Part shown: positions 1 through 59,519 of the stretch, one piece after another
Position numbering within the stretch: position 1 is the first letter of the stretch
How the letters are laid out: each line of letters begins with the position of its first letter
NCBI GenBank assembly: GCA_023144005.1
Contig: JAGLGN010000021.1
Span: forward strand, 1 to 64,000
DNA: 64,000 nucleotides
DNA from: a bacterium
GTDB taxonomy: Bacteria; AUK180
Direction: 5' to 3'
Notes under the pieces: model-generated
What the model saw: the letters and a program-made list of their open reading frames with translations, nothing else
What the model was told of the DNA's origin: nothing
The model's database searches: none
Made by a program: the position numbers and the translations under genes

Positions 1-1
1 G

Positions 2-291
2 TCAATTTCTTCCTCTCGCTTCGCTGACGGACCACAAAGGGTACGCTGCGCTCATTGTTCGTTGGAACTGACTCAAATCTAAACATTCCATTGTCATCGT
101 ATTTATGAAAAAGAGCACTGGCAACGCAGAAGACAAAAAAAGAGCTTCAGCCCGAAGGGAATATCATCTTTGATCAATTTCTTCCTCTCTCTTCGCTTAT
201 GTACCACAGAGGGTACGCTGCGCTCATTGTTCGTTGGAATTGACTCAAATCTAAACATTCCATCGTCACTGTATATATGAATCAGAGCACT
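2..291. repeat. 118-bp imperfect direct repeat pair
   Basis: Positions 2-119 and 174-291 are near-identical copies with a constant offset of 172 bp and scattered substitutions. Each copy ends in a variant of the dispersed motif TTTATGAAACAGAGCACT (102-119 and 274-291). The 53 bp between them (121-173) also recurs at 53477-53529. No credible gene overlaps; a 78-codon minus-strand frame across the repeat resembles no protein I know. Confidence 0.85.
121..173 (+). repeat. 53-bp dispersed repeat, copy 1
   Basis: This segment matches 53477-53529 in the same orientation with 51 of 53 positions identical by eye. Its left end, around GCAGAAGACA, also recurs inverted near 10266-10278. It is bordered on both sides by the 118-bp repeat copies, so the left edge of the window is a composite of repeat modules. 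Confidence 0.85.
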
Positions 292-9909: not shown

Positions 9910-9950
9910 ATGATTAACTCCAGTTATAATGCGTGGGTGACTAACACCAT

Positions 9951-10058
9951 AGTGCTCTGCTTCATAATTACCTTGACAATCGTTCGCGAGTGAACGAGGT
10001 ACGAGGTTGGATGTACGATGTGCGAGGTGGAGATGAAAACAATATCCACACCCGTAAC
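9951..10058 (-). repeat. composite repeat element with hairpin
   Basis: Read on the minus strand, this element has a segment (10035-10058) matching 59399-59422 at 23 of 24 positions, then pyrimidine-rich units such as CCTCGTACC (about 9993-10034), an inverted repeat TCGTTC/GAACGA with 6-bp spacer (9980-9997), and finally TTATGAAGCAGAGCACT (9951-9967). The same order of modules is seen at 53878-53949, and the first three at 59399-59480, but the hairpin stems differ in sequence. Confidence 0.7.
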
Positions 10059-10265
10059 CGGAAAATCAATATTTCGTTTAACACTTTAATTCTCCTGTTC
10101 CAATCATATCACGCCGCACCCCAATCAAGATATGGGACATGACGTACGCCGCCGGCGTTCGTCTGTCCCGATGTAAAAGTACCAAGCGGAGAGTTGAAAA
10201 TTGTGAAGCAATTGTACACTCTTCGCAATGTATAGAATCACATGACAACATTTTCTACGCCTCTT

Positions 10266-10348
10266 CTCTGTCTTCTGCGCTCCTCGCGCCTTGAACACAG
10301 AATAAAATGGCATCAGCCATTGTTGATGGATTTTTGAAACAGAGCACT
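10266..10348. repeat. dispersed repeat modules between citD and icd
   Basis: The complement of 10266-10319 aligns with the stretch from 53404 to about 53446 (common core near ATTCAAGGAGCGAGGAACG), followed in both by GCAGAAGACAGA. On the plus strand 10331-10348 is a near-exact copy of the TTTATGAAACAGAGCACT motif, only 9 bp from the icd stop. With 9951-10058 these modules fill most of the 447-bp gap between citD and icd; no protein-coding potential is evident. Confidence 0.65.
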
Positions 10349-10356
10349 AACATATA

Positions 10357-13708: not shown

Positions 13709-14002
13709 CAGGTATTTTCACTTTTTTTAAAGTTTTTTATTTTACCTCGTTAAACCACATGGAAACACTCTCCACACCTCTTTGATTATTATCTCCTTTC
13801 TCTTTTGTCATTCCCGCGAGAGCGATGAATCCATCCCCTTTCAGATGTGCCGAATGATGTGTAGCGTGTGAGGTAGGAGAATAGAATTGGCAGTGAACAA
13901 TTGACAAATCGTGCAGCCGCACCATTGAATAGATAATTATCTCTTTACTCATACAATTTTTCTACTTTTTCTACCACCGTCCCCTATTCCTTGAATCTGC
14001 GA
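13709..14002. other. intergenic region with degenerate repeats
   Basis: Between the acn promoter and the orphan gene ending at 14003 there is no convincing gene. It holds a degenerate second copy of the GTCATTCCCGCG palindrome (13807-13833) and purine-rich units such as GTGTGAGGTAGGAG (13866-13879) that resemble the complementary strand of the other composite repeats. Confidence 0.5.
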
Positions 14003-15545: not shown

Positions 15546-16112
15546 GCTTCCCATTAGAAGCGCCCGGAACCAGATAGTTAATTCTTGTGGCCTTTCCGAT
15601 AGAAGTGATCTCAATTCCTCACAGGACACCCACATTATTTCTGATACTTCGGAAGTATTGAATGGTATATTTTCGGAAGTGAAAACTCCTTTGAAGGTGT
15701 GATTGAATTCGCGTTCAAAAAGTCCCTGACCGACATCAAGGTCATACCTTGCAGTTGTGATCTCTTTGATATCGACCGTGATCCCGAGCTCTTCTGTCAC
15801 TCTGCGGGCAGCAGCAGCGGCCGTTTCCTCCCCCGGTTGCGGATGTCCGCAGCAGGCATTGCTCCAGAGTCCCGGAGAGTGATATTTCTCAGCGCTTCTT
15901 CTCTGTAGAAGCATATTACCGTCAGGATCGTATAAGAATACTGAAAAAGCCCTATGGAGTTTGCCCCCATTCAGATGCGCGGCGAGCTTCTCCTCAACAC
16001 CGACCGGATTATCATCATTATCAACAAGGATCACAACGGACAGGTCAAGCCCTGTCCCTACGACTATTTTTAATTCTTTATCCTTCTTATTCTTCATTTC
16101 CCTATGCTTCAT
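15531..16112 (-). CDS. idi: isopentenyl-diphosphate delta-isomerase, type 1
   Basis: Interconverts isopentenyl and dimethylallyl diphosphate for isoprenoid synthesis. The Nudix-fold protein keeps LHRAFSVFLY, the CCGHPQPGEE segment with the catalytic cysteine before Gly-His-Pro, and EREFNHTF with the catalytic glutamate. At 193 residues it has about 25 extra N-terminal residues compared with the E. coli enzyme; these are Lys/Glu-rich and encoded by A/G-rich DNA resembling the flanking repeats. The true start may be the ATG at codon 6. It lies 209 bp downstream of hypE with duplicated repeats between. No other isoprenoid gene is in the window. Confidence 0.9.
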   Translation of the reverse strand: MKHREMKNKKDKELKIVVGTGLDLSVVILVDNDDNPVGVEEKLAAHLNGGKLHRAFSVFLYDPDGNMLLQRRSAEKYHSPGLWSNACCGHPQPGEETAAAAARRVTEELGITVDIKEITTARYDLDVGQGLFEREFNHTFKGVFTSENIPFNTSEVSEIMWVSCEELRSLLSERPQELTIWFRALLMGSQFKG

Positions 16113-16328
16113 TTCTTAACTAACCTCTGCTCTAATTGTATTTTCCTACTTTACACTTCAGACTTCACACTTCAGACTTGCTGAGCAAGCTCAGCATTGC
16201 TTGTGATCTGCGAAACGTCATTCTTTATTTCCCCATTCGTTATTTCTTAACTAACCTCTACTCTAATTGTATTTTCCTACTTTACACTTCAGACTTCACA
16301 CTTCAGACTTGCTGAGCAAGCTCAGCAT
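16111..16328. repeat. 87-bp direct duplication with hairpins
   Basis: Positions 16111-16197 and 16242-16328 are identical except for one base, offset by 131 bp. Each copy has an AACTAACCTCT unit, pyrimidine-rich direct repeats (CACTTCAGACTT twice) and a perfect palindrome TGCTGAGCAAGCTCAGCA (16179-16196 and 16310-16327). The first copy starts in the idi start codon and the second ends within the hypE stop region, so the last codons of hypE are part of the repeat. Confidence 0.85.
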
Positions 16329-17329
16329 ATCCTCGGTATTTGGACTATGTCAGAAGAAGTCAGTCTTCTCTTTCCGCCACTCAATGTTTTCATTATGGCA
16401 GACGGCTTATCTGATTTTCCGCTGAAGTGCCCTATTACGGAGCTTTCGGGGAAACCGTTTTCCTTCAAAGCGGTTTCAACATCACTCTCACAGTCCCTCT
16501 CGCATACTATGATCATATTCCCTTCGCATGCCAGATATAGCGGGTCCATACCTGTTATATAGGTAAGTCCTTTCACCCAGGACTTTAAAGGTATCATTCT
16601 CTCATTGATCTCAAGGTCGCTTCCGGTCAGACGGGCGAGCTCTATCATCACCTGAGCCAGGCCGCCTCTTGTGGGATCGCGCATGAAGTGTATCTTGTCC
16701 TTGAAGGGTGTCAATGCTTTTAAAACACCTGTCATCTCACGGCAGTCGCTTTTTACGATCTCATTCTCTTCAAGAATGGAATTTCTGGCCTGAAAGATAG
16801 CTGCTCCATGATCCCCGACACTCCCTGCGACTAATATCGATGCTTCTTTTTGTATTTTTCCCGGATTAGTAATGATATATGGAGTGCCGATGCCGGAAGT
16901 TGTAACATATATGCCGTCGCCATGGCCTTTTTCCACTACCTTGACATCTCCGCAAACGATCTTGACCCCTGCACTTTCAGCTTCATCAGCGGCGGCTCTC
17001 ACTATCTTTTTTACAGAAGATATCTCAAATCCTTCTTCCAGTATGAATGTCATTGACAGGAATCTGGGTATGCCTCCCTGAGCCACGATATCGTTTACCG
17101 TTCCGGCGACGGAAAGCCCACCGATATTGCCTTTTGGAAAAAATGCCGGAGAAACCACAAAAGAATCGGTGGTAAATATGACTTTTTCCGAATCCCAGGG
17201 CATTTCCGCGCCATCATCGAGTTTTTTGGCATACGGATTATCAATGATCGGAATGATTATCTCCTCAATGAGTTCGCGTGTTTTTTCACCGCCAAGCCCG
17301 TGGGCTCTTATTATCTTAGTTTCTTTCAT
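16322..17329 (-). CDS. hypE: hydrogenase maturation protein HypE
   Basis: Dehydrates the carbamoyl group handed over by HypF to form the thiocyanate that supplies the cyanide ligands of the [NiFe] active site. The 335-residue PurM-like ATPase starts at MKETKIIRAHGLGG and ends with PRIC, whose C-terminal cysteine is the carrier residue. A longer frame to 17455 exists, but the chosen ATG matches family N-termini and overlaps the hypD stop by 14 bp. Cytoplasmic, working with HypF, HypC and HypD encoded just upstream. Confidence 0.95.
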   Translation of the reverse strand: MKETKIIRAHGLGGEKTRELIEEIIIPIIDNPYAKKLDDGAEMPWDSEKVIFTTDSFVVSPAFFPKGNIGGLSVAGTVNDIVAQGGIPRFLSMTFILEEGFEISSVKKIVRAAADEAESAGVKIVCGDVKVVEKGHGDGIYVTTSGIGTPYIITNPGKIQKEASILVAGSVGDHGAAIFQARNSILEENEIVKSDCREMTGVLKALTPFKDKIHFMRDPTRGGLAQVMIELARLTGSDLEINERMIPLKSWVKGLTYITGMDPLYLACEGNMIIVCERDCESDVETALKENGFPESSVIGHFSGKSDKPSAIMKTLSGGKRRLTSSDIVQIPRIC

Positions 17330-18395
17330 ATTTATAATATGCGCTGCAGGCGCCCTCTGAAGAGACCATACAGGGCCCGATAGGATTATCAGGTAAGCAT
17401 TTGTTCCCAAAGAGCGGGCAATCGGTCGGTATGCAGATACCTTGCAGGATCTCACCGCAACGGCAGCCGGCGGGTTCGTTCTCCTCGGGATATTTTACCT
17501 TGAATTTTTTCTCGGCATCATAATCCGAATATTTTTTCCTGATCCCAAGCCCGGTAGCGGGTATTACACCCAAGCCGCGCCATGGGGTATCAACTATCTC
17601 AAATACTTCGTCCATGACCTTCTGCATGAGTTCATTCCCTTTGTCTGTGACAGCCCGGGAATAAGCGTTTTCAACCTCTACAACACCCTTGCGTATCTGC
17701 CGTATCAGCATATGTATACCGGTCAGTATATCAAGAGGCTCAAAGCCTGAAACCACACCTCTGATACCGAGATCGGCATAAGAATCCTTGCCGAGGATGA
17801 TGGAAACATGGCCGGGAAGGATAAAACCATCTATCTTGCTTAGAGGATTATCCGCAAGTGCCTTCAGAGCAGGTGGAATGATCTTATTAGCGGACAGGCA
17901 GGTAAAATTGGAAAGCTTATTTTCTACAGCTACCTTTATGGTCTGAGCGATCACGGGCGCAGTTGTCTCAAAACCTACTCCGAGAAAAACCACCTCCTTA
18001 TCAGGATTTTCCATAGCGATCGTAATAGCTTCCAAAGGTGAGTAAACTATCCTGACTTTCTCCTTCGGAAATCTTCCCAGTGTATCGCCGGAAGAATTGG
18101 GGACACGCACCATATCACCGAATGTGGTGATCAGGACTTCCTTTCTTTCCGCCAACTCGATAGAAGCCGATATATACCCGGAAGGCGTTACACATACGGG
18201 ACAGCCGGGGCCGGAAAGAAGTTTCAGCTTGTCAGGTACAATACTTCGTATGCCTGAGCGTCCGATGCTCATTGTGTGGGTGCCGCAAACCTCCATGAGG
18301 TTTACCGGCCGTGAAATATCTTCCAGATCTTTTTGGATCAAGTGCACAAGTTTCTTTACGAGTTCAGGATCCGCATACTCGTCAATAAATTTCAT
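17316..18395 (-). CDS. hypD: hydrogenase maturation protein HypD
   Basis: Scaffold on which the Fe(CN)2CO unit of [NiFe] hydrogenase is assembled with HypC. The 359-residue protein has CGTHTMSIGRSG, GPGCPVCVTP and the C-terminal cysteine set of the [4Fe-4S] cluster (CRCGEILQG, then PTDCPLFGNKC). An earlier in-frame ATG at 18419 is available, but the ATG at 18393-18395 aligns with known HypD starts (MKFIDEY) and forms an ATGA overlap with the hypC stop. Confidence 0.95.
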   Translation of the reverse strand: MKFIDEYADPELVKKLVHLIQKDLEDISRPVNLMEVCGTHTMSIGRSGIRSIVPDKLKLLSGPGCPVCVTPSGYISASIELAERKEVLITTFGDMVRVPNSSGDTLGRFPKEKVRIVYSPLEAITIAMENPDKEVVFLGVGFETTAPVIAQTIKVAVENKLSNFTCLSANKIIPPALKALADNPLSKIDGFILPGHVSIILGKDSYADLGIRGVVSGFEPLDILTGIHMLIRQIRKGVVEVENAYSRAVTDKGNELMQKVMDEVFEIVDTPWRGLGVIPATGLGIRKKYSDYDAEKKFKVKYPEENEPAGCRCGEILQGICIPTDCPLFGNKCLPDNPIGPCMVSSEGACSAYYKYERN

Positions 18396-22706: not shown

Positions 22707-25700
22707 TTATATCAACTGTTCCAATTTAATAAGTAATCGGTCCAGCAGAATTCTGGCTTCGGTAATATCAGCGGAACTTATTCTCCTTAAATAATTTATA
22801 GCTTTGATGCACTCGAGGATAGATTTTTCTTTCATTTCATCAAGATCATGGACATTCTGAACTTTTATCAGACATTTAGCGGCATTTGATATTAAATGCT
22901 CTTCTTTGGGTTCAACCTCCATTGCCAGCAGGTGTTCAATAATTTCATCCATGAAAATTCTCATATCCGGTAAGTGCTGCACATCAAATTCTGTCATTAC
23001 GGGAGGTTCATCCCACCAGATACCGTTCAGTTTATATTTCAGCAGAGCTTCAGCAGATAATTCATTGATATCCTCAGGGATTTCAATCAGAACATGATAG
23101 GCCTTTCTTTCTCCGGTATTCAGTCTGTCCGACCAAACGGAAACATTGGATTCAACTTCAGCGGCAGGATGGGTTTCAATTATCATGCAGCTTTCAGTGA
23201 AAATACCTGTCAGAGAAATATCAAGATCCGCAACTTTCGATTCTACTTCTATGCCTATACCTACCAAATCATTGGAATCAACCTGAGAATGTTCCGGAGT
23301 TAAATATTTCATTGCGTTTTGTAATATGCCGTCGGCCATATCCAATGACTGGAAAAGATCAAACGCAATATATACCGTCCTACCCATCCCGTATGAATTA
23401 CCGACTATTACCGGTGTAGGCAAAGATCCGGAAATAGAAGCATACCCCGCGTTGAAACAACCGTTTGATTCTATTTTATACATCTCTCCTGAAGTAAGCA
23501 ATATGCCTTCATGCGTAATGGGAGAATTCAAAAGATTTACGCAAAGGTTCTGCCCGTCGTAAACTCCGTTGAATTTGATCCCGAGAACTTCAGGACTGTC
23601 CCCTTCTCCCAGAAAGTGGTAGTAATGCGATGTAATAAGACCCTTACCGGAGAATACATGCTCTCGAAGCTCTTCTGATGTATGTCCTTCCAGATTTTCG
23701 TAATTGCCGAGGATGACATACTCGTTGAACATTCCTGTTCTCATCGCGGATACGAATTCCGATTGTGAAACCGTAATAGTGTATGTCATTATATCAGGTC
23801 CCGAAAGGAGTTCGTCAAGAGCCGCCCTGGTAATATCAGGGACCGTCTCTTTATTGAGCCATACGAGAACCCTCGGTAGTGAGGATACTTCGACAGTGAT
23901 ATCAAATGCCGGAACGACCTCGAACTCGATACTCTTTGTATCCTCGGTATTGTCCAGATTGTCAACACTGAAAAATTCCATGGTATGAACACCGTATCCA
24001 AGCGTTGATATATCTACACCACCGGTATAATTCAGCCACATGTCCCCGTCTATTCTGAACTGTGTGTATTTTGTACCGCTTCCGAACTCACCGTCTTCAG
24101 ATCCGATATGGAAATACGAGCCCCGGATGACATTCGGTATCCCCTGTGAAAGGATCGAGGGCGTAAATGTCCCGGTGCTTTCCGGAGCAGTTGTATCGAT
24201 ATAAAGATCAAGGATATTGTCATTCTCGGTATTGAACGCCCTGTCGGTCGAGTGGTAGTAGAATGGGCAGTATCCGTCCGTCATATTTTCAAGCGCGACA
24301 GGATAGCCGTATTCGCCCCAGAGTATTCCGTCAAAGGAATATTCTGTATTGTACATACCGGCAAGATCGTCATTTCCGGTGAGAATAACAGATGCTCCGT
24401 TAATGGTATAGACATTGTTGTTTTCTATATAAAGTTTCTCGGAATCAACCAGTGCCTGTGTAACCGGCGGGGTCGTGTCAAGCTTAACGGTTGTCTCGAT
24501 CGTATCTGAACTCAGTCCCATGAGATCAACTGCAAATGTCTTGATGGTATATTCCCCGTCGGGCGCAAGGCCTCCGGAAAGCGAAGAACCGTTCCAGGTA
24601 ATTGTCACAGGAATCTCATCACCGGTTTCGGCCGGCGTCATGAATACCTTTTCACCGGTACTGTCATATACCTCAACAAAGAGTACGGATTTTTCCGATA
24701 CAGAAGCAGTTATTGAAAGAAGGTCAAGCTTCCCGTCGTCATTGGGACTGAATACATCCGAAGATACGCTATATCCCAGTATTTCCGGATCGCCGAACTC
24801 GTTCTCCGATGAAACAAGCGCATAATACGAAAGATGAGGCATCTTGATCGTAATAAGATTGTTTTCAGAATCCTTCGTGACAAGAGTTGTATCCGGCTGT
24901 GCAATATCCCATCTGTCGAGGTTCCGGTAATACATATAGATGTCCAGATTTTCCTCCGCTCCGATCACCGAGCTGTCATCATATGAAAATTCAATGTCAC
25001 ACATATCCGCAAGGCTGTATATCGTCGATAAAGTTTCTATCCGGTACACATCTCCCACCAGAATTTCTTCCAGAGAACTGCTTGAAGGGATCAAATCCGG
25101 CTCAGAAATTTCATGTATCGTTAAATAATCCATCCCTTGTTTAAGGGCTTCGCTGTCAATTGCAATCGAAAAATTCCCGTCAGTACTTTCAACTGTTCCC
25201 GGTACATTGTAGGTTGTCGGGTTGCACGGGTCATCCCAGAGGAAATATCTGGCGTAGATGTCTGTTTTGTCCATTTCTTTATTATGTTCACTGTAAATAA
25301 GTATGTTCCCGTTGTCTGACCACTCCGGAGAATTCAGGACAACCTCCTCCCTGCGTTTCTCAAGATATCCGCAAACCTTTTCTATATCTCCGCCGGAAGG
25401 ATCACATGCCAGTATTTCATTCTGTACATAAGATTTTCCTGGATCATCCTGTTCGATCCTCACGAATGAGATCTTATTGCCGTTTGCAGTCCATCTCAGG
25501 GTATGTGTTTCCAATTTATCATCGGTAAAAAAAGTCACCTGATACGGCACCTGAAAATCTCCCGGTGTCCCATCCTCCAATACGATCCTTTCGATCATCC
25601 AGATATTCCAGTGACCGTCCGTATTCGATGAGTAGGCCAGCTTCTGCCCGTCAGGAGAGAATATCGGGTCTTTTTCCGATGCCGGATCGTCTGTAAGCCA

Positions 25701-28700
25701 GACAGGATTAAAATAATAACTATTTACCACACAAAGATCGTTCCTCAGGGTATTGGAAACAAGAGAACAAAAATCGCTCCCACCGGGATTAGGTGTACAG
25801 ATCCTGCTATAATTGCGTTTTGCAATAGGCGCAACGATCTTTCCGTCAATGCTCCATGCCGGAGATCCGCTTGAAGGGATATTTTTAAATTGATTCTGTA
25901 GCGGATCGTTTGCTACCGGCCTGATTATCTGCATATGAAAATCACCGGATGTTATTGCCAGGGGGGTGTTTATGTACTCATTATTGATTGAATGGAAGTT
26001 GAACGCCATTAATTTGCCGGTAGAACTGGGGCATTTGCCTAATACTACTACATCCATTACATCTCTTATTCTGGTGCCATCATGGTCGATGAACTTGAAT
26101 TCTTCCCACATTTGACCATTTTCCGAATAATACCGTTCCTCAAATGCTATTGGGGGAAGGTACTCATTCTGCTTATAGTTTTCTTTCAGCCAGACCGGAT
26201 CATCTATCCTGTTGAAATCCCCCGTATGAATATCAAATATCCCACTGTCCAGAAGTTCAAGATCTACGACTCTGAGTATATTTCCGTCATGGACAAATGC
26301 CGTATATTCATTCCCGGGTGATAATGTGGGCTGAATGGAATGGACACCCTGAGTGTTTTCCGTTATATTATCAACATGGCTCATATAAGTTATTGTCATT
26401 TGAGAATGGTTAATGACGATAAATCTGTCTTCAGAAGGCTGTTCAAAGTATGCATTTCCCGCTAAATCGCTCACACGGATTCCGTAGTAGTACCTGCCTT
26501 CAGGAAGGTCATTGCCGTCATTATCCTTTCCGTCCCAGACACAATGATAGATATCACCGATAAACTCACAGGAAATTTCAACCAAGCTTTCCCCCGGGTT
26601 CGCAGTTATTCCATCAAAGATATAAACTGAACAGTTTTGAATCCCGGAAAGAGCGTCAACCGCATCTACCGAAAACTCCATGAAGTCATTACATCCGTCC
26701 GCGTTCGGACTGAAGGTTTCCGGAACTGTCGTGATGGTATTCACATGGGGGTTACATGTATCAACGATCAGATCATCCCCATCAAATGTGGAAATATTGC
26801 CTATGTTGTCAGATAATATCATTTCATAAAGATACGAGCCGTCACCTGTAATTGCGCTCTGCATATCAGTACCGTCCCATGAAATTGATAAATTACCTCC
26901 TGATCCCAGATGGTTCCAGACAACGGATCCCTCGCTATTCAGAATATTGAATTCCCAATATGCCACCCCGAATGAATCCGATGCTGTACCGTTTATATGT
27001 AGAATATCTTTTATCCCATCGCCATTCGGACTGATAAAACGATCATATGGCAGAATATTCACGATCGGACCTGAAGTATCGAGAATAATAGTGGAACTCG
27101 ATACCGGACTATTACTTCCAAACGGGTTCACAGCGAAATACTCAATAGTGTATTCTCCACCCGGATAGCCTTCAAATGTAAAGGGGGCTTTGTATTCGTC
27201 CCAGTCATTTCCATTTATGCTGAACATGATTTCAACAAGTTCCTCCGGCCTATCAATTGATCTGAAACTAAGGGGAGTTATAGAACTGATGTTTACAATA
27301 TTGTCAACGGTTATCCTCGGTTCACCAACAACGAGTTCAATCTCAGGTTCATGTGAATAGATCCTTGCATCTATATACCTTTCGCTGCTCGTATTGAAAG
27401 CATGATCCGTACTTCTATACCATATTCTGTGTACTTCGCTTGAATAGTCTGAGAAATTGAAAGGTTCGGTATATTCCGTCCAGGGATTTTCATCGATCCT
27501 GAACTTGATATCTTCAACAATATAATTATTACTCCCGAAATCATCAGATGAAATTGTAAACAGAGTATCCGGTGATACGGCGTGATATTCTTCAGATTGA
27601 ACATAATTGCTGGGATCGCCGACGGATATATATACCTCAGGTGGATTCGTATCGATCTCAATGCTTTCTGTTATTCTGGATATGTACACACCATGAGGTG
27701 AAGACGCGTCAATAACCAGTGTATATCGATCATCTTTCACATATTCATTGAAATCCTGGTCCGTACCGTCCCAGGCAAAGGAATGTCGACCTGTCTGCAG
27801 TAGTGTATTATTGCAGAGCTCTTTGATATGGTTGTTCTTCAGATCGTAAATATTTATTGAAAGTCTGAGTTCTTCGTAAATCGTAAATGCCACTTCAGTG
27901 TTGTCAAATACCTCGTATGAGAACGGATTCGGAGAAACACTCAGATCTGTAATCACCGGCATGGGATCACAGTTCATGGCTATATATTCAACCCTCTCTT
28001 CGGCATGATTGCCCGCCAGATCAATACAGAAGAATCTGCACAAGTAATATCCGGAAGGACCTAAATCTCCATTGATCATCCCATCCCATTCAAAAGTGGC
28101 GTTACCTTCATTAGCAGGCAGGATTTTCCTGCAGATTTCGTCTCCGTAAACATCATATAAATAGAAGTAGATGTTCCCGGGTTCCGATATCAAGATGTCC
28201 ACCGAAGTTTTTGAAGTTATATCTGTAAAAAACGGATTCGGAATTATTTCCAGGTCATTGATCTCTGGTGAAACGGTATCTCTGACAACATATACCTTTT
28301 CAAAAGTCCTGCTTTCAATGTTTTTATATGTAACGAAGATATAGTTATCTCCCTCATTCGGAAGCTCGATATCCGAAAGCTCAAATCGAACCGTGTCACC
28401 ATCAACGCTCCATTCTACCGTATTGAATGTACTGCCTACAGCAGAAGTATTGTCACCATCATCGATAAAATCCGGATCATCGTCAACCAATATCTCAATC
28501 TCATACCTGCTGTCAGCAGTTCCCGATATCGAAATACTGCTTTTGTTGGTAAGCGATGCGATCTCGTCAAGAACCGGTTTGATCGGCGGTGCTGAATTCA
28601 ACGAAGCAACGATAACCGGCGAACTGATCTCAGCAGACAATTTCCATAATGAGTCACCTAATCGTGTACATGTTCGGTTCTCCAGTTTTTCAAACTCACC

Positions 28701-31700
28701 TGATGGTTTGATCGCATAAAGAGAAATAGTATTTTCATTGATTCCGTTTTCCTCTATTTCTTCATTAGTATAGTAATATATAAGAGTTGCCGGAGAATTA
28801 AATTCCTCGTTTTCCTCGCCTGCCTTGACCTGTACAATCGGTCCGAATGGAACAATATCCAGATCATGATCAAGTTCCGATAGGCTGCTCGCGGAAACGC
28901 TGATGACATCCTGAGCATTGAAGGTGCCTGCATCAAAATTCAGATTTATCCTGTCGTAAGGTGCGCTTACCGTTCCACTTGAATAATCATCAATGTATGA
29001 ACCTACATTAATCGAAAGGTTGTTAACATTCTTGCTTCCATTCGAATTTGTGATTTCCAGTAATAGATTCTGAAGACCTCTGATGCCGGTTACATCCCAC
29101 CAGCAAAGTGTTCCGGTTTTAGTGTCCGATCCGACTGGAACATCACTGCTTACTATTTCGTCCCAGTGCCCGTTATTGTAACTGTAAACCGTATAGGATT
29201 CAAATTCATCACCGAATGCCTTTCCCTTAATTTCTATCATCTCTTTGCCGCTTGCCATCAAATTGAGCTTCATATTGAAACGATCATTGATATTATCGAT
29301 TTTATTAACATGAGTTTCATGAGTTGAAAAATCATTGTTTGTAGAACCATCGGGGTATTGGCATTCAATTATCCAATCATCAATTATTGTATGGGGATTA
29401 TCTTTCTTCAGAATACCTTCCAGAAGGAAACAGCTTTTATTATTATCGCTTTCATACAAATTCCATGGATAAAGATCAATGTGGTGGAAGATTTTTGTTA
29501 TCGCTCCAAGTGAAGAGGGCAGTGAAAATGAATGAAGTCCGCTTTCAAGAAATCCATTAGATTGTGTAAGTAATGGATCTTCCAAGGGTGCCCATGTACT
29601 ATCGTAGGTTGGGAATGTTGCCTTGAGCGCAGTTTTGGTATCACTGAGATTTGATTCCACTAGCTCTAAGTGTATCCCTTCAAAATTAGTATCCGAAGAA
29701 ATTAAGGTCGAGTCCTCTCTCTTAATAATGATTCTATCATAATAGCCGCCATGAACATAATCATTGTGAAAAACCATAATGTCTTCTTCTTCAAAATAAT
29801 AACCGTCTTGGTTATTATCATAGTCCATTGTTGAAGTAACTGTATCTAACTCGCCATTCTGGCAATCCATACGAATCGAAGCGGTATCTATCTCATAAGG
29901 AGGATCTCCGGGATTATAAGCATCAGTGGGATCATTATACTGACCGGTTGTTTCCGGTGGTGAATCATTGTATTCTATTAGATCTTTTGTATAATCGTCA
30001 GGGGAAGAATCCGAATTAATGTCCGCGTAAACCGTATTAAATGCTTTGCTATTGAGGTGATTGATGGAATTTAAATCCTGAAGTGGCCAATCAACCGAAT
30101 AAGGGGTTATACCCGGTGTTTCGGGACTGATCTCTTTATCACAATAAACATAATGTTTCTTAGAATAAACCGGGTCTTGTACTAAATGAACACCTGGTTC
30201 CCCATTGTCTGAGATGACGGGATTAAACTCAATTGACTGGTTGAATAAGTAATAATCAATAGATTTATCCGGGAAATTCAACCATCTATTGTATTCCGCT
30301 TCCATTTCAGGTCTGAAATGGTTCCAGTTTCTTCCGCCATACCGATCATTTTGATCTATTTCGGCAGTAATAGTTATTTTATCGCCGCCGATAATATTAC
30401 CTTCTCCATCTTTTTTCCAGACAACATCCTTGTAAACCGCACGATTTTTATTCACATATCCGAACCAAGTATAATATCTGTTATTTACGGGATTAAGATC
30501 CCAGCTGATGAAATCACATTTCAAGTTGATAAAAATATTGTGGTTGGTTCCAATGTCATAGTTACCTTGAATTTTGAAAGGAGGATACTCCTTGGGTTGA
30601 GTGAATCTTGAATAATTGCAGTTTTGTTGTATCGGAAAATATGTCGGTCGGGTTTCATCCCAACAAACCGGTCCATCTGGAGTAGGTTTACAAATGGTAA
30701 TTGTATGGGTTCCCTTAAAAACACTGAAGTTCAAATTAATGAAATGCAGTTTTGTAAAATCGCCCCACTTTACATTACCGCAGCAATTAGTCTTCCAGCC
30801 GACAATATCAGTAGAATAGGATAAGTTTTTTTCGCTTAGTAAACATCTTGTTGAATCAGTCGGATCGGTAACGAATACTGTTTCAAAACTAAAAGGAATT
30901 TCAAAAAACTGTCCTTCTTCTTTAATAAAATTACAGCTACTCCCGCACTTATACTTCACACCTTCACCATGGATATTACCGTCAACTTTGACTTCTGCTC
31001 TATTGAACTTCCTATGTACCTGTAACGCAAATGGATAATAAGGATAGACTGTTACCAATTGCTTTCCTTGAAGATTTGCGGACCATGAAAATTTAAGAGA
31101 AGGAAAATATCTTCCTTCAGGTTTGCTTCTTACTACAAAATTTGATGTTGATTTGGCTACATCTAATCCATTCACTGAGCTACCATTGTCTTCAATTTCA
31201 ATAAACGCGGTTGAAGTACCGGATTGATAATCTGAATGAGAAACATTTATAGCAGTTGAAGACTCCTCAATACTTATACTTTCACCCACAGGTGTACAGA
31301 TAAATTTCACCTTATAAGTACCTTCCGGTGCAGTGAATCCCTCCGGATCACAAGTGCCATCCCATGTAACATGATGTTCGGTTCCGCCTTTAAATACTCT
31401 ATCTGATACTATGGTCAAGAGCTTCTTTCCGGGATCAGTTTCTTTAAAATCATAAACTTCAGCAGTTATAGTCACATCTTCGGTGGGTGTAAAACTGATT
31501 GTACTTGAACCGGGATCGCTAAAAGAATAAATCTGATCCGGAGCGGGAGAGTCAACATCAATATCAAATATCGTTTCCACATGAACAACTGCGTCGGCAT
31601 ATCCATATCCGTTATTGTCAACCGAGGAGGCGGTCACCCTCACAGTATAATCACCGTCATTGACAAAAGAATCCGTATCGAAATACTTCCCGTTCCATGA

Positions 31701-34700
31701 AACCGTCTGCGGTGAAGTCAGATCTTCTAAAGAAAATGGATTGGTAAAAGGATTGAGGTTTTCTTTACCGATATAAATGTTTTCAGTCCCGGGATTTCCG
31801 GTAAATTCGATATTTGAAATGATATATTCACCCGAAGACTTAAATACTATTTCCCCTGAATTATTTTCCAGATTTACATTAAGATTCAGCAGACCTCCTG
31901 AAAATTCAACTCCTTCTTCAAGTAAGAGTACGGAAGTATCACTGAAAATGCCATCTGTGACTATACTACCGTTAAATGTATTGTTTCCATTGCTTGAATT
32001 CAGAAATATATGCCAGAAGTCATCTTCAGCCTGCCAGTAGTAGTATCCAGGATCACTTTCGATAATTACGGAAGTTCCCGCATATTGACTTGATGATATA
32101 TTATCGTGATGTTCATAATACACCAGCCTTCCTGATGAGTCCAATATCTCGATATCAACATCGGAATCCTTGTTCTCCAATCCGTATATTATCTCAAGTA
32201 TGGAATCGGGAGGGGAATTTCCAAATGTAATGTTGGTATTGCTTAGATTTAAATTTACATAAAGATCAGTACTTTCGGCTTCTATAATATTAATGTTTCT
32301 TAACACACAGGACCTTTTTCCGTTTACACCTTCTTCCTCTACGACCAGGAGCAATGTATATTCTCCCGGACCCGGATATCCAGTATTCCAGTATGCCAAT
32401 ATACCGTCATCAAGTACGCTTGCCGAAGATATATGAGCCTTTCCGTAATAAGGATCCGTATTATCCGTTGACATATAGAATTTGGGAACACTTATTTCAT
32501 TTGTAACCCAGCTGGACCCGATAAGAGATTCATCATCGAGAGAAGCTGGAATGGTATTTATCGATCCGGCTTTAAAGTATATTCGATATGCCCTGAAGGA
32601 ATTCGAGTTTGTCCAATCAGGGTCCATCGCCCTGCCCTTTATGGTTATTTTTCCGTAAACTTCTGATCCTTCTTCGGGAAAGCTGATCTCGGGAGGAACG
32701 GCATCTTTTACAAAATCAGCGGATGCTGTTGATGAGTTTCCTTTTGAATCGGTTGCGGTTATCCTGAATTGATATTTCCCTGAATTCCATTCTTTAGGAA
32801 CCGTATATTCGATCTCATTCGTATCATAGATTGAGTTTCCGATTCCCTCGAATTTTTCGAGACCTTCACCTGAATTCGAGTCTATTATTTCTCCATCAAC
32901 GATGATATTTGCTCCGTCTTTATTGATTCCTTCGTCATTGTCCTCGGAGAGATCGTATCTGAACTTTATCATAGCTGATGCTATGAAAGGCATCGAATGG
33001 ATCTTTGAGATGATCGGAGAAGTTCTATCGACTATTATATCACTCATGCTATACCAATCACTTTGATTGCCGGCGAAGTCCATCATCCGTATTTTTAACT
33101 GATATTTCCCATCTTTGGGAGCATTCAACCCGTTGAAGGAGAACTTGTTCTCTTCATCGATACCGTCATCATTCATATCCTGAGGTCCGTCGTTCAGACT
33201 ATGATATCCCATTCCCGGATATTTCGTTAATACACTGTCATGACTGATCAGATTGATCTCAAGCGTACAATCTTCCGATACCTTATATAAAAAGTCCAAC
33301 GAATAATCGGTTTTTGTGAAGGTCTTGTTTTCAGGGTCAAAACCATATTCAAGGAATTCAGGCACTGCTGTATCAATCATTAAATGAGTAGATGACTCCC
33401 CGACATTTCCCGCAACGTCGGAAGCAGATATCTTGACCAGGTACTCTCCGTCTTCGATATCTCCGTCCCATTCGAAGAACCTTCTTCCAATACCCTGATA
33501 AGAAATCTCTTTCAAAACGGCAATCTCATTATCCGAAACATCGCAAAGTATAATTTCTATATTATTTAATGATTCTGATATATTGTCTTCCATGTTATAT
33601 GCGACAAGCATTTTCTTTTCGCCGTCTGGAGAGAATGGTTTCAATTCATCTATTGAGATAACAGGACGGGTTTTATCGATCCAGAAATTCCAGTATGTCT
33701 GAGACATCGGGGGGTTTTCCTCTCCTGAATCATGGATTATTTTAGTATAAATCTTATACTCACCTTCTTTTGAAAAGATCGATTCATCCGATGAATATTC
33801 CAATGTTGAACAAACGGTAGAAGGTCCCGAAGAAGTGTCTATAGTAACAAAATCAATTATATTTTCAAGATTCTCAAGTGAATCCCCCGCCATTCCGATT
33901 TTCAACACTTTATAATCGATCATTGATTTCGGGTCATCTTCATAATCTGTTCTGTCGGAATCTATCCTGATAGAAAGGGGGGTCAGGATAGGATTGATGC
34001 TGGACCTTGGCATTGGAAATTTGGGGATGGCATATAAGGGAACCGGATTGTAGTTCAACCTTAGCATTCTCCAGTCGGTAATTCCATAATCATTTGTGGA
34101 TTCGAAGCTAAAGATGTTCTGACCCTCCAGAACATGCTCCTCTATCTTTATCTTGAAATTTCCATACATGTCTCTGATGTATCTTTTTTCATTAAGGACT
34201 TCGCTTCTTATAAAATCATCGTTTGAAACCATCTCAATGTATTTCCATTCACCGTAATTGAATGAAACTCTGGCATACCGTAGCTTATGTGGAAGGAAAT
34301 CATGGATTTGACCTGTAATAATCGAATCTTCGGTAAGATCACCAGGACCTAATCTGATGATATCGACCTGTTCATACTGTTTCTCACCATCTTCGTCGAA
34401 TGTATTGAGCTTTTTCAATAATCCATTCTTTGCTGAAGTATTTTTGTTGACTTTCTGATATGAGAAATCCGTATTTCCATTTACTGAAGCTATACCTCCA
34501 AGGCACCAATCATTAAGAAAGTATCCCCAGTTATCAAACAGTTTGAGAGCCCGAGCACTATTATGGGCATCAATTTTGAACTGCTCTTCAAATTTACCAG
34601 TATTAACTTCAAAACTTTTTGCATTTGCTAGATAATTCAAATTTCCAGACCATGTAAATCCTCTCTGACTGGATTCTGAAACTACAAAATCTCCAGGACT

Positions 34701-35633
34701 CAACGGAAACAAGGATGATAATATTGTTGATACCTGTTTTAGAAAGGGATCTGATGATGAATAATTGGTTTTAGGTCTTGGCATAATATCAAAAGTCATA
34801 ATCATCTGTTTTTGATATATAACACCCCAGTCAATCTCTAACATTTCATCTATTAGCAATCTGTTATTCAGATTTCTTAAATCTTGACTATCGTAAATAT
34901 ATTGATCAGAATTCGTATAGTATGGTATCTCATTTTTTAGAACTAAATAATTACAATATACAAGTAGAATTGTTGCAGCTTTAATAAAAATATTAGCTTT
35001 TATCAAATTGCCAATTGCACATTGCTGTACTCCACTTCCTATTAAAATATTCGCAACTGTTAATAAATAGAAATATGTTGCAGGTTTTATTAAAGCTAAA
35101 TCACTTCCAGTATGCGGACCACTGCTTGTAATTACTTGTGATATGTCTAGAATTTTTTTATTTTCTATTGAATCATATCTCCAATTTCCCTTATCCATCA
35201 CATAAGCTCTAGCACCTAATCCACCAGCAGAATGAGTAATTAATATAATGTTCTCTGGATATTCTGTTGTTATAAGAGGTGAAAAATTATGATTGTATTT
35301 CTCCTTCCATCTCCTTCTAGTATCATTAATCCATTTATCATTTTGAGTTCCAATTTGATGTCCCCAATCCAAAAATTTCCCAAATTCATCATCAAATTTA
35401 TACTTATACACAAAGACAGTATTATCATTTTCAATTTCTCTTTCAATAAAATGATTACCTTCCAGAAATCTTGATAGTTCTTTTGATACTTCTTTCCACA
35501 CTCCCCCACCGCCAAAGCCATGAACAAGAATTATTGCGGTTTGATTAATACTCCCATATTCTTCCGTAGCAGACGTGGGTTGCATTAAGAAGAACATCAA
35601 AACAATCAAGATAGTTGTTGTAACTTTCTTCAT
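22707..35633 (-). CDS. giant secreted protein: lipase-like domain, Ig/FlgD-like repeats, TolB-like propeller
   Basis: A 4308-residue exported protein. Residues 1-22 are a signal peptide. An alpha/beta hydrolase or lipase-like domain follows, with LVHGFGGGG (36-44) and THSAGGLG (133-140; Ser135 as likely nucleophile). Most of the rest is a chain of Ig-like units of the FlgD/OmpL47 kinds, recognisable by recurring WDG/WNG turns followed by a GxYxxxxxxxD strand (for example HVTWDGTCDPEG, HSFAWDGTDQ, VTITWNGSSL) and by DLAGN turns. A TolB/WD40-like stretch (FSPDGQKLAYSSNTDGHWNIW) lies about three-fifths along. The C-terminus is a helical tail ending in LIKLEQLI; I see no sorting signal, LPxTG or barrel. 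It follows the LolA-like gene by 9 bp. Function is unknown; adhesion or extracellular degradation are options. Confidence 0.85.
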   Translation of the reverse strand: MKKVTTTILIVLMFFLMQPTSATEEYGSINQTAIILVHGFGGGGVWKEVSKELSRFLEGNHFIEREIENDNTVFVYKYKFDDEFGKFLDWGHQIGTQNDKWINDTRRRWKEKYNHNFSPLITTEYPENIILITHSAGGLGARAYVMDKGNWRYDSIENKKILDISQVITSSGPHTGSDLALIKPATYFYLLTVANILIGSGVQQCAIGNLIKANIFIKAATILLVYCNYLVLKNEIPYYTNSDQYIYDSQDLRNLNNRLLIDEMLEIDWGVIYQKQMIMTFDIMPRPKTNYSSSDPFLKQVSTILSSLFPLSPGDFVVSESSQRGFTWSGNLNYLANAKSFEVNTGKFEEQFKIDAHNSARALKLFDNWGYFLNDWCLGGIASVNGNTDFSYQKVNKNTSAKNGLLKKLNTFDEDGEKQYEQVDIIRLGPGDLTEDSIITGQIHDFLPHKLRYARVSFNYGEWKYIEMVSNDDFIRSEVLNEKRYIRDMYGNFKIKIEEHVLEGQNIFSFESTNDYGITDWRMLRLNYNPVPLYAIPKFPMPRSSINPILTPLSIRIDSDRTDYEDDPKSMIDYKVLKIGMAGDSLENLENIIDFVTIDTSSGPSTVCSTLEYSSDESIFSKEGEYKIYTKIIHDSGEENPPMSQTYWNFWIDKTRPVISIDELKPFSPDGEKKMLVAYNMEDNISESLNNIEIILCDVSDNEIAVLKEISYQGIGRRFFEWDGDIEDGEYLVKISASDVAGNVGESSTHLMIDTAVPEFLEYGFDPENKTFTKTDYSLDFLYKVSEDCTLEINLISHDSVLTKYPGMGYHSLNDGPQDMNDDGIDEENKFSFNGLNAPKDGKYQLKIRMMDFAGNQSDWYSMSDIIVDRTSPIISKIHSMPFIASAMIKFRYDLSEDNDEGINKDGANIIVDGEIIDSNSGEGLEKFEGIGNSIYDTNEIEYTVPKEWNSGKYQFRITATDSKGNSSTASADFVKDAVPPEISFPEEGSEVYGKITIKGRAMDPDWTNSNSFRAYRIYFKAGSINTIPASLDDESLIGSSWVTNEISVPKFYMSTDNTDPYYGKAHISSASVLDDGILAYWNTGYPGPGEYTLLLVVEEEGVNGKRSCVLRNINIIEAESTDLYVNLNLSNTNITFGNSPPDSILEIIYGLENKDSDVDIEILDSSGRLVYYEHHDNISSSQYAGTSVIIESDPGYYYWQAEDDFWHIFLNSSNGNNTFNGSIVTDGIFSDTSVLLLEEGVEFSGGLLNLNVNLENNSGEIVFKSSGEYIISNIEFTGNPGTENIYIGKENLNPFTNPFSLEDLTSPQTVSWNGKYFDTDSFVNDGDYTVRVTASSVDNNGYGYADAVVHVETIFDIDVDSPAPDQIYSFSDPGSSTISFTPTEDVTITAEVYDFKETDPGKKLLTIVSDRVFKGGTEHHVTWDGTCDPEGFTAPEGTYKVKFICTPVGESISIEESSTAINVSHSDYQSGTSTAFIEIEDNGSSVNGLDVAKSTSNFVVRSKPEGRYFPSLKFSWSANLQGKQLVTVYPYYPFALQVHRKFNRAEVKVDGNIHGEGVKYKCGSSCNFIKEEGQFFEIPFSFETVFVTDPTDSTRCLLSEKNLSYSTDIVGWKTNCCGNVKWGDFTKLHFINLNFSVFKGTHTITICKPTPDGPVCWDETRPTYFPIQQNCNYSRFTQPKEYPPFKIQGNYDIGTNHNIFINLKCDFISWDLNPVNNRYYTWFGYVNKNRAVYKDVVWKKDGEGNIIGGDKITITAEIDQNDRYGGRNWNHFRPEMEAEYNRWLNFPDKSIDYYLFNQSIEFNPVISDNGEPGVHLVQDPVYSKKHYVYCDKEISPETPGITPYSVDWPLQDLNSINHLNSKAFNTVYADINSDSSPDDYTKDLIEYNDSPPETTGQYNDPTDAYNPGDPPYEIDTASIRMDCQNGELDTVTSTMDYDNNQDGYYFEEEDIMVFHNDYVHGGYYDRIIIKREDSTLISSDTNFEGIHLELVESNLSDTKTALKATFPTYDSTWAPLEDPLLTQSNGFLESGLHSFSLPSSLGAITKIFHHIDLYPWNLYESDNNKSCFLLEGILKKDNPHTIIDDWIIECQYPDGSTNNDFSTHETHVNKIDNINDRFNMKLNLMASGKEMIEIKGKAFGDEFESYTVYSYNNGHWDEIVSSDVPVGSDTKTGTLCWWDVTGIRGLQNLLLEITNSNGSKNVNNLSINVGSYIDDYSSGTVSAPYDRINLNFDAGTFNAQDVISVSASSLSELDHDLDIVPFGPIVQVKAGEENEEFNSPATLIYYYTNEEIEENGINENTISLYAIKPSGEFEKLENRTCTRLGDSLWKLSAEISSPVIVASLNSAPPIKPVLDEIASLTNKSSISISGTADSRYEIEILVDDDPDFIDDGDNTSAVGSTFNTVEWSVDGDTVRFELSDIELPNEGDNYIFVTYKNIESRTFEKVYVVRDTVSPEINDLEIIPNPFFTDITSKTSVDILISEPGNIYFYLYDVYGDEICRKILPANEGNATFEWDGMINGDLGPSGYYLCRFFCIDLAGNHAEERVEYIAMNCDPMPVITDLSVSPNPFSYEVFDNTEVAFTIYEELRLSINIYDLKNNHIKELCNNTLLQTGRHSFAWDGTDQDFNEYVKDDRYTLVIDASSPHGVYISRITESIEIDTNPPEVYISVGDPSNYVQSEEYHAVSPDTLFTISSDDFGSNNYIVEDIKFRIDENPWTEYTEPFNFSDYSSEVHRIWYRSTDHAFNTSSERYIDARIYSHEPEIELVVGEPRITVDNIVNISSITPLSFRSIDRPEELVEIMFSINGNDWDEYKAPFTFEGYPGGEYTIEYFAVNPFGSNSPVSSSTIILDTSGPIVNILPYDRFISPNGDGIKDILHINGTASDSFGVAYWEFNILNSEGSVVWNHLGSGGNLSISWDGTDMQSAITGDGSYLYEMILSDNIGNISTFDGDDLIVDTCNPHVNTITTVPETFSPNADGCNDFMEFSVDAVDALSGIQNCSVYIFDGITANPGESLVEISCEFIGDIYHCVWDGKDNDGNDLPEGRYYYGIRVSDLAGNAYFEQPSEDRFIVINHSQMTITYMSHVDNITENTQGVHSIQPTLSPGNEYTAFVHDGNILRVVDLELLDSGIFDIHTGDFNRIDDPVWLKENYKQNEYLPPIAFEERYYSENGQMWEEFKFIDHDGTRIRDVMDVVVLGKCPSSTGKLMAFNFHSINNEYINTPLAITSGDFHMQIIRPVANDPLQNQFKNIPSSGSPAWSIDGKIVAPIAKRNYSRICTPNPGGSDFCSLVSNTLRNDLCVVNSYYFNPVWLTDDPASEKDPIFSPDGQKLAYSSNTDGHWNIWMIERIVLEDGTPGDFQVPYQVTFFTDDKLETHTLRWTANGNKISFVRIEQDDPGKSYVQNEILACDPSGGDIEKVCGYLEKRREEVVLNSPEWSDNGNILIYSEHNKEMDKTDIYARYFLWDDPCNPTTYNVPGTVESTDGNFSIAIDSEALKQGMDYLTIHEISEPDLIPSSSSLEEILVGDVYRIETLSTIYSLADMCDIEFSYDDSSVIGAEENLDIYMYYRNLDRWDIAQPDTTLVTKDSENNLITIKMPHLSYYALVSSENEFGDPEILGYSVSSDVFSPNDDGKLDLLSITASVSEKSVLFVEVYDSTGEKVFMTPAETGDEIPVTITWNGSSLSGGLAPDGEYTIKTFAVDLMGLSSDTIETTVKLDTTPPVTQALVDSEKLYIENNNVYTINGASVILTGNDDLAGMYNTEYSFDGILWGEYGYPVALENMTDGYCPFYYHSTDRAFNTENDNILDLYIDTTAPESTGTFTPSILSQGIPNVIRGSYFHIGSEDGEFGSGTKYTQFRIDGDMWLNYTGGVDISTLGYGVHTMEFFSVDNLDNTEDTKSIEFEVVPAFDITVEVSSLPRVLVWLNKETVPDITRAALDELLSGPDIMTYTITVSQSEFVSAMRTGMFNEYVILGNYENLEGHTSEELREHVFSGKGLITSHYYHFLGEGDSPEVLGIKFNGVYDGQNLCVNLLNSPITHEGILLTSGEMYKIESNGCFNAGYASISGSLPTPVIVGNSYGMGRTVYIAFDLFQSLDMADGILQNAMKYLTPEHSQVDSNDLVGIGIEVESKVADLDISLTGIFTESCMIIETHPAAEVESNVSVWSDRLNTGERKAYHVLIEIPEDINELSAEALLKYKLNGIWWDEPPVMTEFDVQHLPDMRIFMDEIIEHLLAMEVEPKEEHLISNAAKCLIKVQNVHDLDEMKEKSILECIKAINYLRRISSADITEARILLDRLLIKLEQLI

Positions 35634-53349: not shown

Positions 53350-53374
53350 GGGGTTTTTTAAGGTATTTTCTCCT

Positions 53375-53529
53375 AGTGTTCCGATTCACAAATACGATAA
53401 TAGTGGCTGGTGCTATTTTGTTTCGTATTCAAGGAGCGAGGAACGCCGCATACCCCCTGCGGTATGTAAGCAACGAGCAACGCAGAAGACAGAAAAAGAG
53501 CTTCAGCCCGAAGGGAATCTCATCTTTGA
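53375..53529 (+). repeat. long composite dispersed repeat
   Basis: The element begins with a divergent, inverted copy of the GAAACAGAGCACT motif (53375-53393), continues with a stretch matching the complement of 10266-10319 (from about 53404 to 53446), a hairpin CATACC/GGTATG (53449-53466), and ends with the 53-bp repeat shared with 121-173 (53477-53529). The order shows that modules seen separately elsewhere belong to one larger family. The rest of the 903-bp gap to tolC (53530-53877) has no gene I can support. Confidence 0.7.
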
Positions 53530-53877
53530 ATTGTCAATGTAAAATTGACAATTTAATAAAGATTATTTGATGGAGTTTTGACCCATCTTTGTTCCCATGT
53601 CATTTTTTGCGACGATACTCACCACGGCCATCATTCATTAAAATCCCAAAACTCGTTAGCTTTCGCTCACTCAGACAATTGGATATTTTCGGCTTCGCCA
53701 CCATTCATTCCTGCCGTTAAAAATGTCAATGTCGCTTAAATGGTTCAAAACTCTTTTGGGTTGGTCGCCCGGCGCTGCCGGGCTCCCGTTGAGCGGATGC
53801 GGGAAGGAAATAAAGAAGAGGAGAATGTCATCCAGAGGGAGTTTGCGACCGTGGGATCCAGTTTTATTTCATCCTGG

Positions 53878-53949
53878 CTCCCACTTTACACTTCACACAC
53901 ATCGTTCGCTGCGCGAACGACTGTTAGGGTATTTATGAAACAGTACACT
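53878..53949 (+). repeat. composite repeat element with hairpin, upstream of tolC
   Basis: Pyrimidine-rich units (ACTTTACACTTCACACACA, 53881-53899) are followed by a perfect 8-bp hairpin TCGTTCGCTGCGCGAACGA (53902-53920) and by TTTATGAAACAGTACACT (53932-53949). It matches the element at 9951-10058 in order but not in stem sequence. Confidence 0.7.
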
Positions 53950-54003
53950 GGCTACAAAATCATGAAAATTTGATAAAAATGAAATATTAGATGGCAAATC
54001 GGG

Positions 54004-59398: not shown

Positions 59399-59480
59399 GT
59401 TACTGGTGTGGATATTGTTTTCGTTTCCACTTCGTACTTCGCACCTCGTACCTCGTACACAGTCAGCTGCGCAGACTGAC
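59399..59480 (+). repeat. composite repeat element with hairpin
   Basis: The first 24 bp match the complement of 10035-10058 at 23 positions. CTTCGTA/CCTCGTA units follow (59430-59458), then an inverted repeat GTCAG/CTGAC (59462-59466 and 59476-59480) around CTGCGCAGA. The stem sequence is unrelated to those at 9980-9997 and 53902-53920 but is in the same place. The rest of the 361-bp gap has no gene I can support. Confidence 0.7.
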
Positions 59481-59490
59481 GAGATTTACA

Positions 59491-59519
59491 TTGACATAAA
59501 GAGCCATTTATAATATAAT
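59491..59519 (+). promoter_or_regulatory. consensus sigma-70 promoter of the DUF6754 operon
   Basis: TTGACA (59491-59496) and TATAAT (59514-59519) are both perfect and 17 bp apart. Transcription should start near 59526; AAGGAG lies at 59535-59540 before the ATG at 59547. This is the best promoter in the window and suggests strong, constitutive expression. Confidence 0.8.

Follow-up and report, generated by a model that had tools for sequence, protein, structure and literature searches.

Does a hairpin that recurs beside short direct repeats, with a different stem each time, mean that structure is selected while sequence is free to change? The question is raised by positions 9951 to 10058 of the window, by which we mean the whole 64,000-nt stretch of DNA analysed here. 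An earlier note on this DNA described pyrimidine-rich direct repeats and an inverted repeat at this and three other intergenic sites, and proposed either selection on RNA or cruciform structure or a family of mobile elements with variable hairpins. The repeats and inverted repeats are present at all four sites as described (Table 1). We consider it probable that the four sites are modules of mosaic, mobile, non-coding intergenic repeats among which hairpin families have been swapped, with sites 1 and 3 being complete elements of the MITE type.

The window belongs to a 2.67-Mb draft genome in 38 contigs, of which about 1.6 Mb (with some overlap) was examined, together with 0.75 Mb from the genome of a single congeneric sister species. 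Gene identity between the two is about 95% where the genes can be aligned. Both genomes are draft, MAG-type assemblies, and genes are simple open reading frame calls.

Table 1. Positions of the repeat features at the four sites in the window
Feature	Position	Strand	Basis or remark
Site 1, complete non-autonomous element	9950..10349	-	396 bp, with TA on either side; both ends located
First terminal inverted repeat, site 1 (outer boundary 9952)	9952..9978	+	matches GTGTTCTGATTCATAAATACGATGACA
Hairpin A, site 1: TCGTTCGC-GA-GTGAACGA, one G-T pair	9980..9997	.	stem in sequence
Heptamer tract (CTTCGTA/CCTCGTA type on minus strand) and conserved 60-nt module, site 1	9998..10058	-	33 genome-wide matches
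Second terminal inverted repeat, site 1	10321..10347	-	sequence match
Site 2, tandem duplication: CACTTTACACTTCAGACTTCACACTTCAGACT tract and hairpin B	16089..16328	+	units 16089-16197 and 16220-16328
Hairpin B, first copy: TGCTGAGC-AA-GCTCAGCA	16179..16196	.	hairpin scan
Hairpin B, second copy	16310..16327	.	overlaps stop-codon end of minus-strand ORF 16322-17455
Composite element of 573 bp (53376-53948) at site 3, complete with paired inverted ends	53374..53950	+	paired ends
Left terminal inverted repeat, site 3	53376..53402	+	paired-end search
Heptamer-type tract CCCACTTTACACTTCACACACA, site 3	53880..53901	+	sequence repeats
Hairpin A, site 3, subtype TCGTTCGC-TGC-GCGAACGA	53902..53920	.	fold z -2.4
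Right terminal inverted repeat, site 3 (TATGAAACAGTACACT motif)	53922..53948	-	motif match and pairing
Site 4, 60-nt module (common to site 1) with CTTCGTA/CCTCGTA heptamer tract	59399..59459	+	no terminal inverted repeat
Site 4 weak hairpin CAGTC-A-GC-TGC-GC-A-GACTG	59460..59478	.	mismatch in stem; fold z -1.5

Hairpins lie on one side of the heptamer tracts

Over the sampled parts of both congeners we collected 119 heptamer tracts, with units like ACTTCGT and ACTTCAC, and, reading along the pyrimidine-rich strand, scored perfect stems of at least 7 bp in the 45 nt or so beyond each tract. Such a hairpin lies downstream of 40 of the 119 tracts and upstream of one (Fisher p about 1e-12), and control segments further from the tracts contain one in 15 of 450 cases; thus the position of the hairpin beside the tract and its polarity are real. 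The order of tract and then hairpin is thus far more frequent than chance allows, with the tract on the minus strand at 9951-10058, and since the polarity is so strong the modules are not in random order.

Intergenic DNA in the sample is rich in hairpins as a whole, with about 74 of at least 8 bp against about 14 expected, roughly five times the number in shuffled sequence, and with a density of 0.83 per kb compared with 0.11 in coding DNA (about sevenfold). The enrichment beside the tracts is the work of two families, which we call hairpin A and hairpin B: when these are removed, no tract-side enrichment is found (4 of 83, against 13 of 448 elsewhere, p = 0.32). All four combinations of tract type with hairpin A or B occur (counts of 22, 15, 15 and 5), which indicates that the modules have been swapped.

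Stem variation within and between hairpin families

Hairpin A (TCGTTC..GAACGA) was compared over 29 distinct copies, in which 96% of cells are paired and nine are unpaired. Two-sided changes are seen in just two of the eight pairs, in seven cells. Six of these seven represent a single A-T to G-C switch that is tied to a 3-nt loop in one subfamily, and the seventh is a lone C-G to T-A change. In hairpin B the stem is near-invariant in about 20 copies while the loop varies, although the pattern used to collect the copies allowed few stem changes, and the invariance is thus partly imposed. Genuine compensation is limited to hairpin A. The stems do differ between the four sites, as had been noticed, because separate hairpin families, each conserved in sequence, are attached to the same tracts; within a family they scarcely differ. 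The proposal that pairing is kept while sequence changes, with stems covarying as pairs across the genome, for the most part does not fit these copies, and they give no support for a general rule by which structure outlasts sequence. A broader caution follows for covariation claims made on few copies, in that swapped families of conserved hairpins can mimic structure without sequence across a window.

The orthologous junctions at two of the sites are suggestive of the pattern proposed. Site 2 consists of two 109-nt units, 94% alike and spaced at 131 nt, in which a tract of the CACTTCAGACTT type is joined to hairpin B; terminal repeats are absent. The sister genome has unrelated repeats at the orthologous place, and these too end in a hairpin. 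At site 4 the hairpin abuts a perfect consensus promoter at 59491-59519, and in the sister genome the orthologous interval holds unrelated repeats, with another hairpin where this junction lies. That both species have a hairpin at such a border, with unrelated stems, would suit the structure-kept idea. As a rule for orthologous junctions at large, border hairpins were rejected: over 46 variable intervals a hairpin lies within 12 nt of the border in 11 cases against 6.3 expected, a weak enrichment.

An RNA element would account for such junctions if the hairpin were selected as a terminator, a 3'-end stabiliser or a regulator; its stem could then vary provided that pairing is preserved. The junctions at sites 2 and 4 speak for this reading, as does the covariation in hairpin A, which exceeds that in shuffles, and in 11 of 13 cases hairpin B adjoins the stop codon of a gene whose reading direction leads into it. 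The neighbours of hairpin A, however, are 13 gene starts and only 4 stops, and the T-run that should follow the G+C stem of an intrinsic terminator is lacking at all sites save for one marginal match at 16179. No Rfam match was obtained, and the near-invariance of hairpin B, the largely constant stem of hairpin A, the lack of enrichment beyond these two families and the weak border count all argue against it. We therefore judge selection on an RNA hairpin to be unlikely.

Other hairpins also occur in this genome. Hairpins of the form TGTCATTCCCGCG..CGGGGAATCC, resembling CGTC-tagged REP sequences, occur at 344-373 and 13806-13835 of the window and on contig 17 near 48886 and 48959; in neighbouring copies the ends are constant and the inner stem varies (ATTCCCGATC.., ATTATCGAAT..). 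They are a better testing ground for structure without sequence than the four sites. Repeated TATCTTCG words form long palindromes, with stems of up to 19 bp, on contigs 9 and 17 (e.g. C17:33739-33778 and C9:41992-42027).

Two-ended elements and their empty sites

The motif reported to follow the hairpin in two copies, TATGAAACAGAGCACT, is indeed present, but it is the outer part of a terminal inverted repeat and not a module of its own. The full inverted ends are about 27 bp long (TAGTGTTCTGATTCATAAATACGATGACA). A scan of the window genome with their core, allowing up to 3 mismatches, gave 117 matches, and the reversed pattern used as a control gave none. In the sampled DNA, pairs of ends facing each other define 52 elements of 142-646 bp, mostly 271 bp, with site 3 among them, and TA is enriched at their outer flanks and at the empty sites, often in degenerate form. 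At 30 ends in the two genomes, a single base separates the inverted end from hairpin A on its inner side, and the tract comes next.

Site 1 has the same arrangement: a first inverted end leads to hairpin A, and beyond it come the heptamer tract, the GTTACGGGTGTGGATATTG module and the second inverted end. The minus strand is the pyrimidine-rich one. The element is missing from the sister genome, where the ortholog has 33 nt in place of the 417 nt at 9939-10355 of the window. Other elements with hairpin A have near-exact empty sites there as well (393 nt against 3 nt, and 421 nt against 10 nt). For hairpin B and site 4, the evidence is of turnover of the whole intergenic interval, not of movement of a unit. 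The suggestion of a mobile element family thus holds for two of the four sites, which have paired ends, TA flanks and empty sites.

The repeats are small intergenic insertions restricted to one uncultured bacterial genus. A scan of 84,980 species genomes, from which the window genome itself was left out, found the end motif in the sister species and in one chance match; the matches seen in viral contigs and in one Bacilli genome were single and unpaired, and were taken as chance. Heptamer tracts are present in 67 places in each congener and in one place in 191 other genomes, and hairpin B is absent from all 191. Literature searches turned up no published description of these repeats.

The 271-bp element with paired ends is present in more than 35 sampled copies (e.g. 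window 1-291 and L154:8650-8921). Within any one copy the two ends show symmetric variation, and the halves of the element resemble a diverged inverted repeat. Of the 33 pairs formed between the two ends, 13 have two-sided changes, in 45 cells against 23 in shuffles. This symmetric variation fits ends that need to match each other and is by itself no proof of an RNA fold, although it could alternatively be read as selection on the fold. We considered whether the element might be coding, as 16 of 38 copies have an open ATG frame of at least 70 codons, but the frame is disrupted in the others and we judged the element to be non-coding. Within the site 3 element, a further hairpin, AATTGTCAAT..ATTGACAATT, lies at 53529-53553 of the window and repeats at C1:333, C4:9447, C9:41 and C16:112464.

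The inverted ends, TA flanks, presence or absence between congeners, module swapping and polarity are all observed. Sites 1 and 3 each consist of inverted ends of about 27 bp with hairpin A directly inside one of them, followed by a heptamer array that is degenerate and by filler modules that are shared, and both are inserted at TA. Site 2 is a related module in which an array is joined to hairpin B, with no inverted ends, and at site 4 the array module carries a third hairpin, a weak one. The hairpin families most likely became joined to the same arrays by insertion into, and recombination within, existing repeats. We infer that the hairpin most likely belongs to the element end as a subterminal part, used in movement of the DNA, and is not an RNA structure selected locus by locus. 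Movement may have been of the cut-and-paste kind, by a Tc1/IS630-like transposase acting in trans or since lost.

Search for a transposase

None of the paired ends in the sampled DNA encloses a transposase gene, and searches for the IS630-type (PF13358, DDE_3) and IS4/IS5-type (PF01609, DDE_Tnp_1) transposases gave no match in either genome. On contig 20, a stretch of 1.6 kb that had been a candidate for an autonomous element proved to be MITE copies around an ordinary gene.

The earlier note had pointed to a transposase of the TnpA-REP type as a possible mobiliser. In this case the repeats would be of the REP or BIME type, moved by a TnpA-REP (RAYT) enzyme that recognises the hairpin. The window genome does contain five Y1 (tyrosine) transposase genes of about 285 aa each (L121, L122, L123, L124 and L125), and the repeats are numerous short palindromes that lie between genes. 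They share with REP, REPIN and BIME sequences associated with RAYT or TIRYT genes the palindromes with stem subfamilies, the mosaic grouping and the presence of Y1 genes in the genome (PMC2817692, PMC3733652). They differ from these in that the flanks of hairpins A and B carry no GTAG or CGTC tag (as defined in PMC3733652) and in that the Y1 genes are not associated with them: neither hairpin A nor hairpin B nor the TAGTG end is found flanking any of the five. At least three of the Y1 genes are instead flanked by inverted repeats of their own (GGGGACGGTTGTTGCAT, TTTGATTTTGTACA, TAGGGACGGTGCTTTAATTCT), two being of the GGGACGGT type; these terminal repeats (GGGGACGGT..TGCAT type) are like those of TIRYT genes (PMC3733652). 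Paired ends and insertion at TA are also foreign to the REP mode. A TnpA-REP mobiliser is thus unsupported, since the five Y1 genes are unlinked to these repeats, and we regard mobilisation of this kind as very improbable indeed. A likely non-autonomous relative (GGGGACGATGGTTGCAG..TTTGCAACCACCGTCCC) is present in the window genome and absent from the sister genome.

Turnover of intergenic regions and relation to known repeats

Many intergenic regions are wholly replaced between the two species. Intergenic regions of at least 250 nt are purine-rich on the left and pyrimidine-rich on the right in all four gene arrangements, with a difference of 0.04-0.06 (standard error 0.012-0.017). This skew, independent of gene orientation, is what might be expected if intergenic DNA were rebuilt by replication slippage and template switching among heptamer arrays, with no transposition at all and with the hairpins as fold-back by-products. 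The arrays do contain many words of 7-8 nt, and the outer arm of hairpin A often keeps the heptamer phase (..ACCTCGT-TC..). Against this, hairpins A and B are found with the same sequence in tens of places, and the TA-flanked paired ends mark defined insertions. We consider this explanation quite improbable, and prefer mobile repeats with swapped modules.

Intergenic heptamer direct repeats, for which slippage or a mobile origin has been proposed, are known as STRR in the cyanobacteria. The TAACTGA heptamers of the Beggiatoaceae are likewise intergenic 7-nt direct repeats with the same proposed origins (PMC4679880). In contrast to both, the arrays described here are polar, are joined to conserved hairpins and inverted ends, and use other words. 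The bacterial MITEs, such as Correia/NEMIS, RUP and ERIC, resemble our elements in being short, non-coding, intergenic and multicopy, with paired inverted ends and with presence or absence between close relatives (PMC2229807). The elements here differ from them in having ends that match none of these, a subterminal hairpin with a heptamer array, and a range of one genus, with no candidate transposase found.

The genus-wide turnover of mosaics is a more unusual fact than the stem differences that first drew attention to this locus. It may be that most of the longer intergenic regions of the genus are built from a genus-specific, polar vocabulary of modules (array, then hairpin, then inverted end), purine-rich on the left and pyrimidine-rich on the right, and are almost totally replaced between species with genes about 95% identical, with no known transposase of the expected type. 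This would be an undescribed mode of building and shuffling, with the hairpin as the outer edge of the module, and we offer it as a doubtful proposal that has some chance of being correct. Should the wider pattern hold, these two genomes would be a clean natural experiment in the rebuilding of bacterial intergenic regions by small repeats, including insertions beside promoters and stop codons.

Two minor observations may be added. The sequence TGTTTCACGTGAAACA (L131 near 6324 and L202 near 1860), which is identical to the parS consensus, directly adjoins a variable intergenic interval. The window also contains an open reading frame of 4308 aa on the minus strand at 22707-35633.
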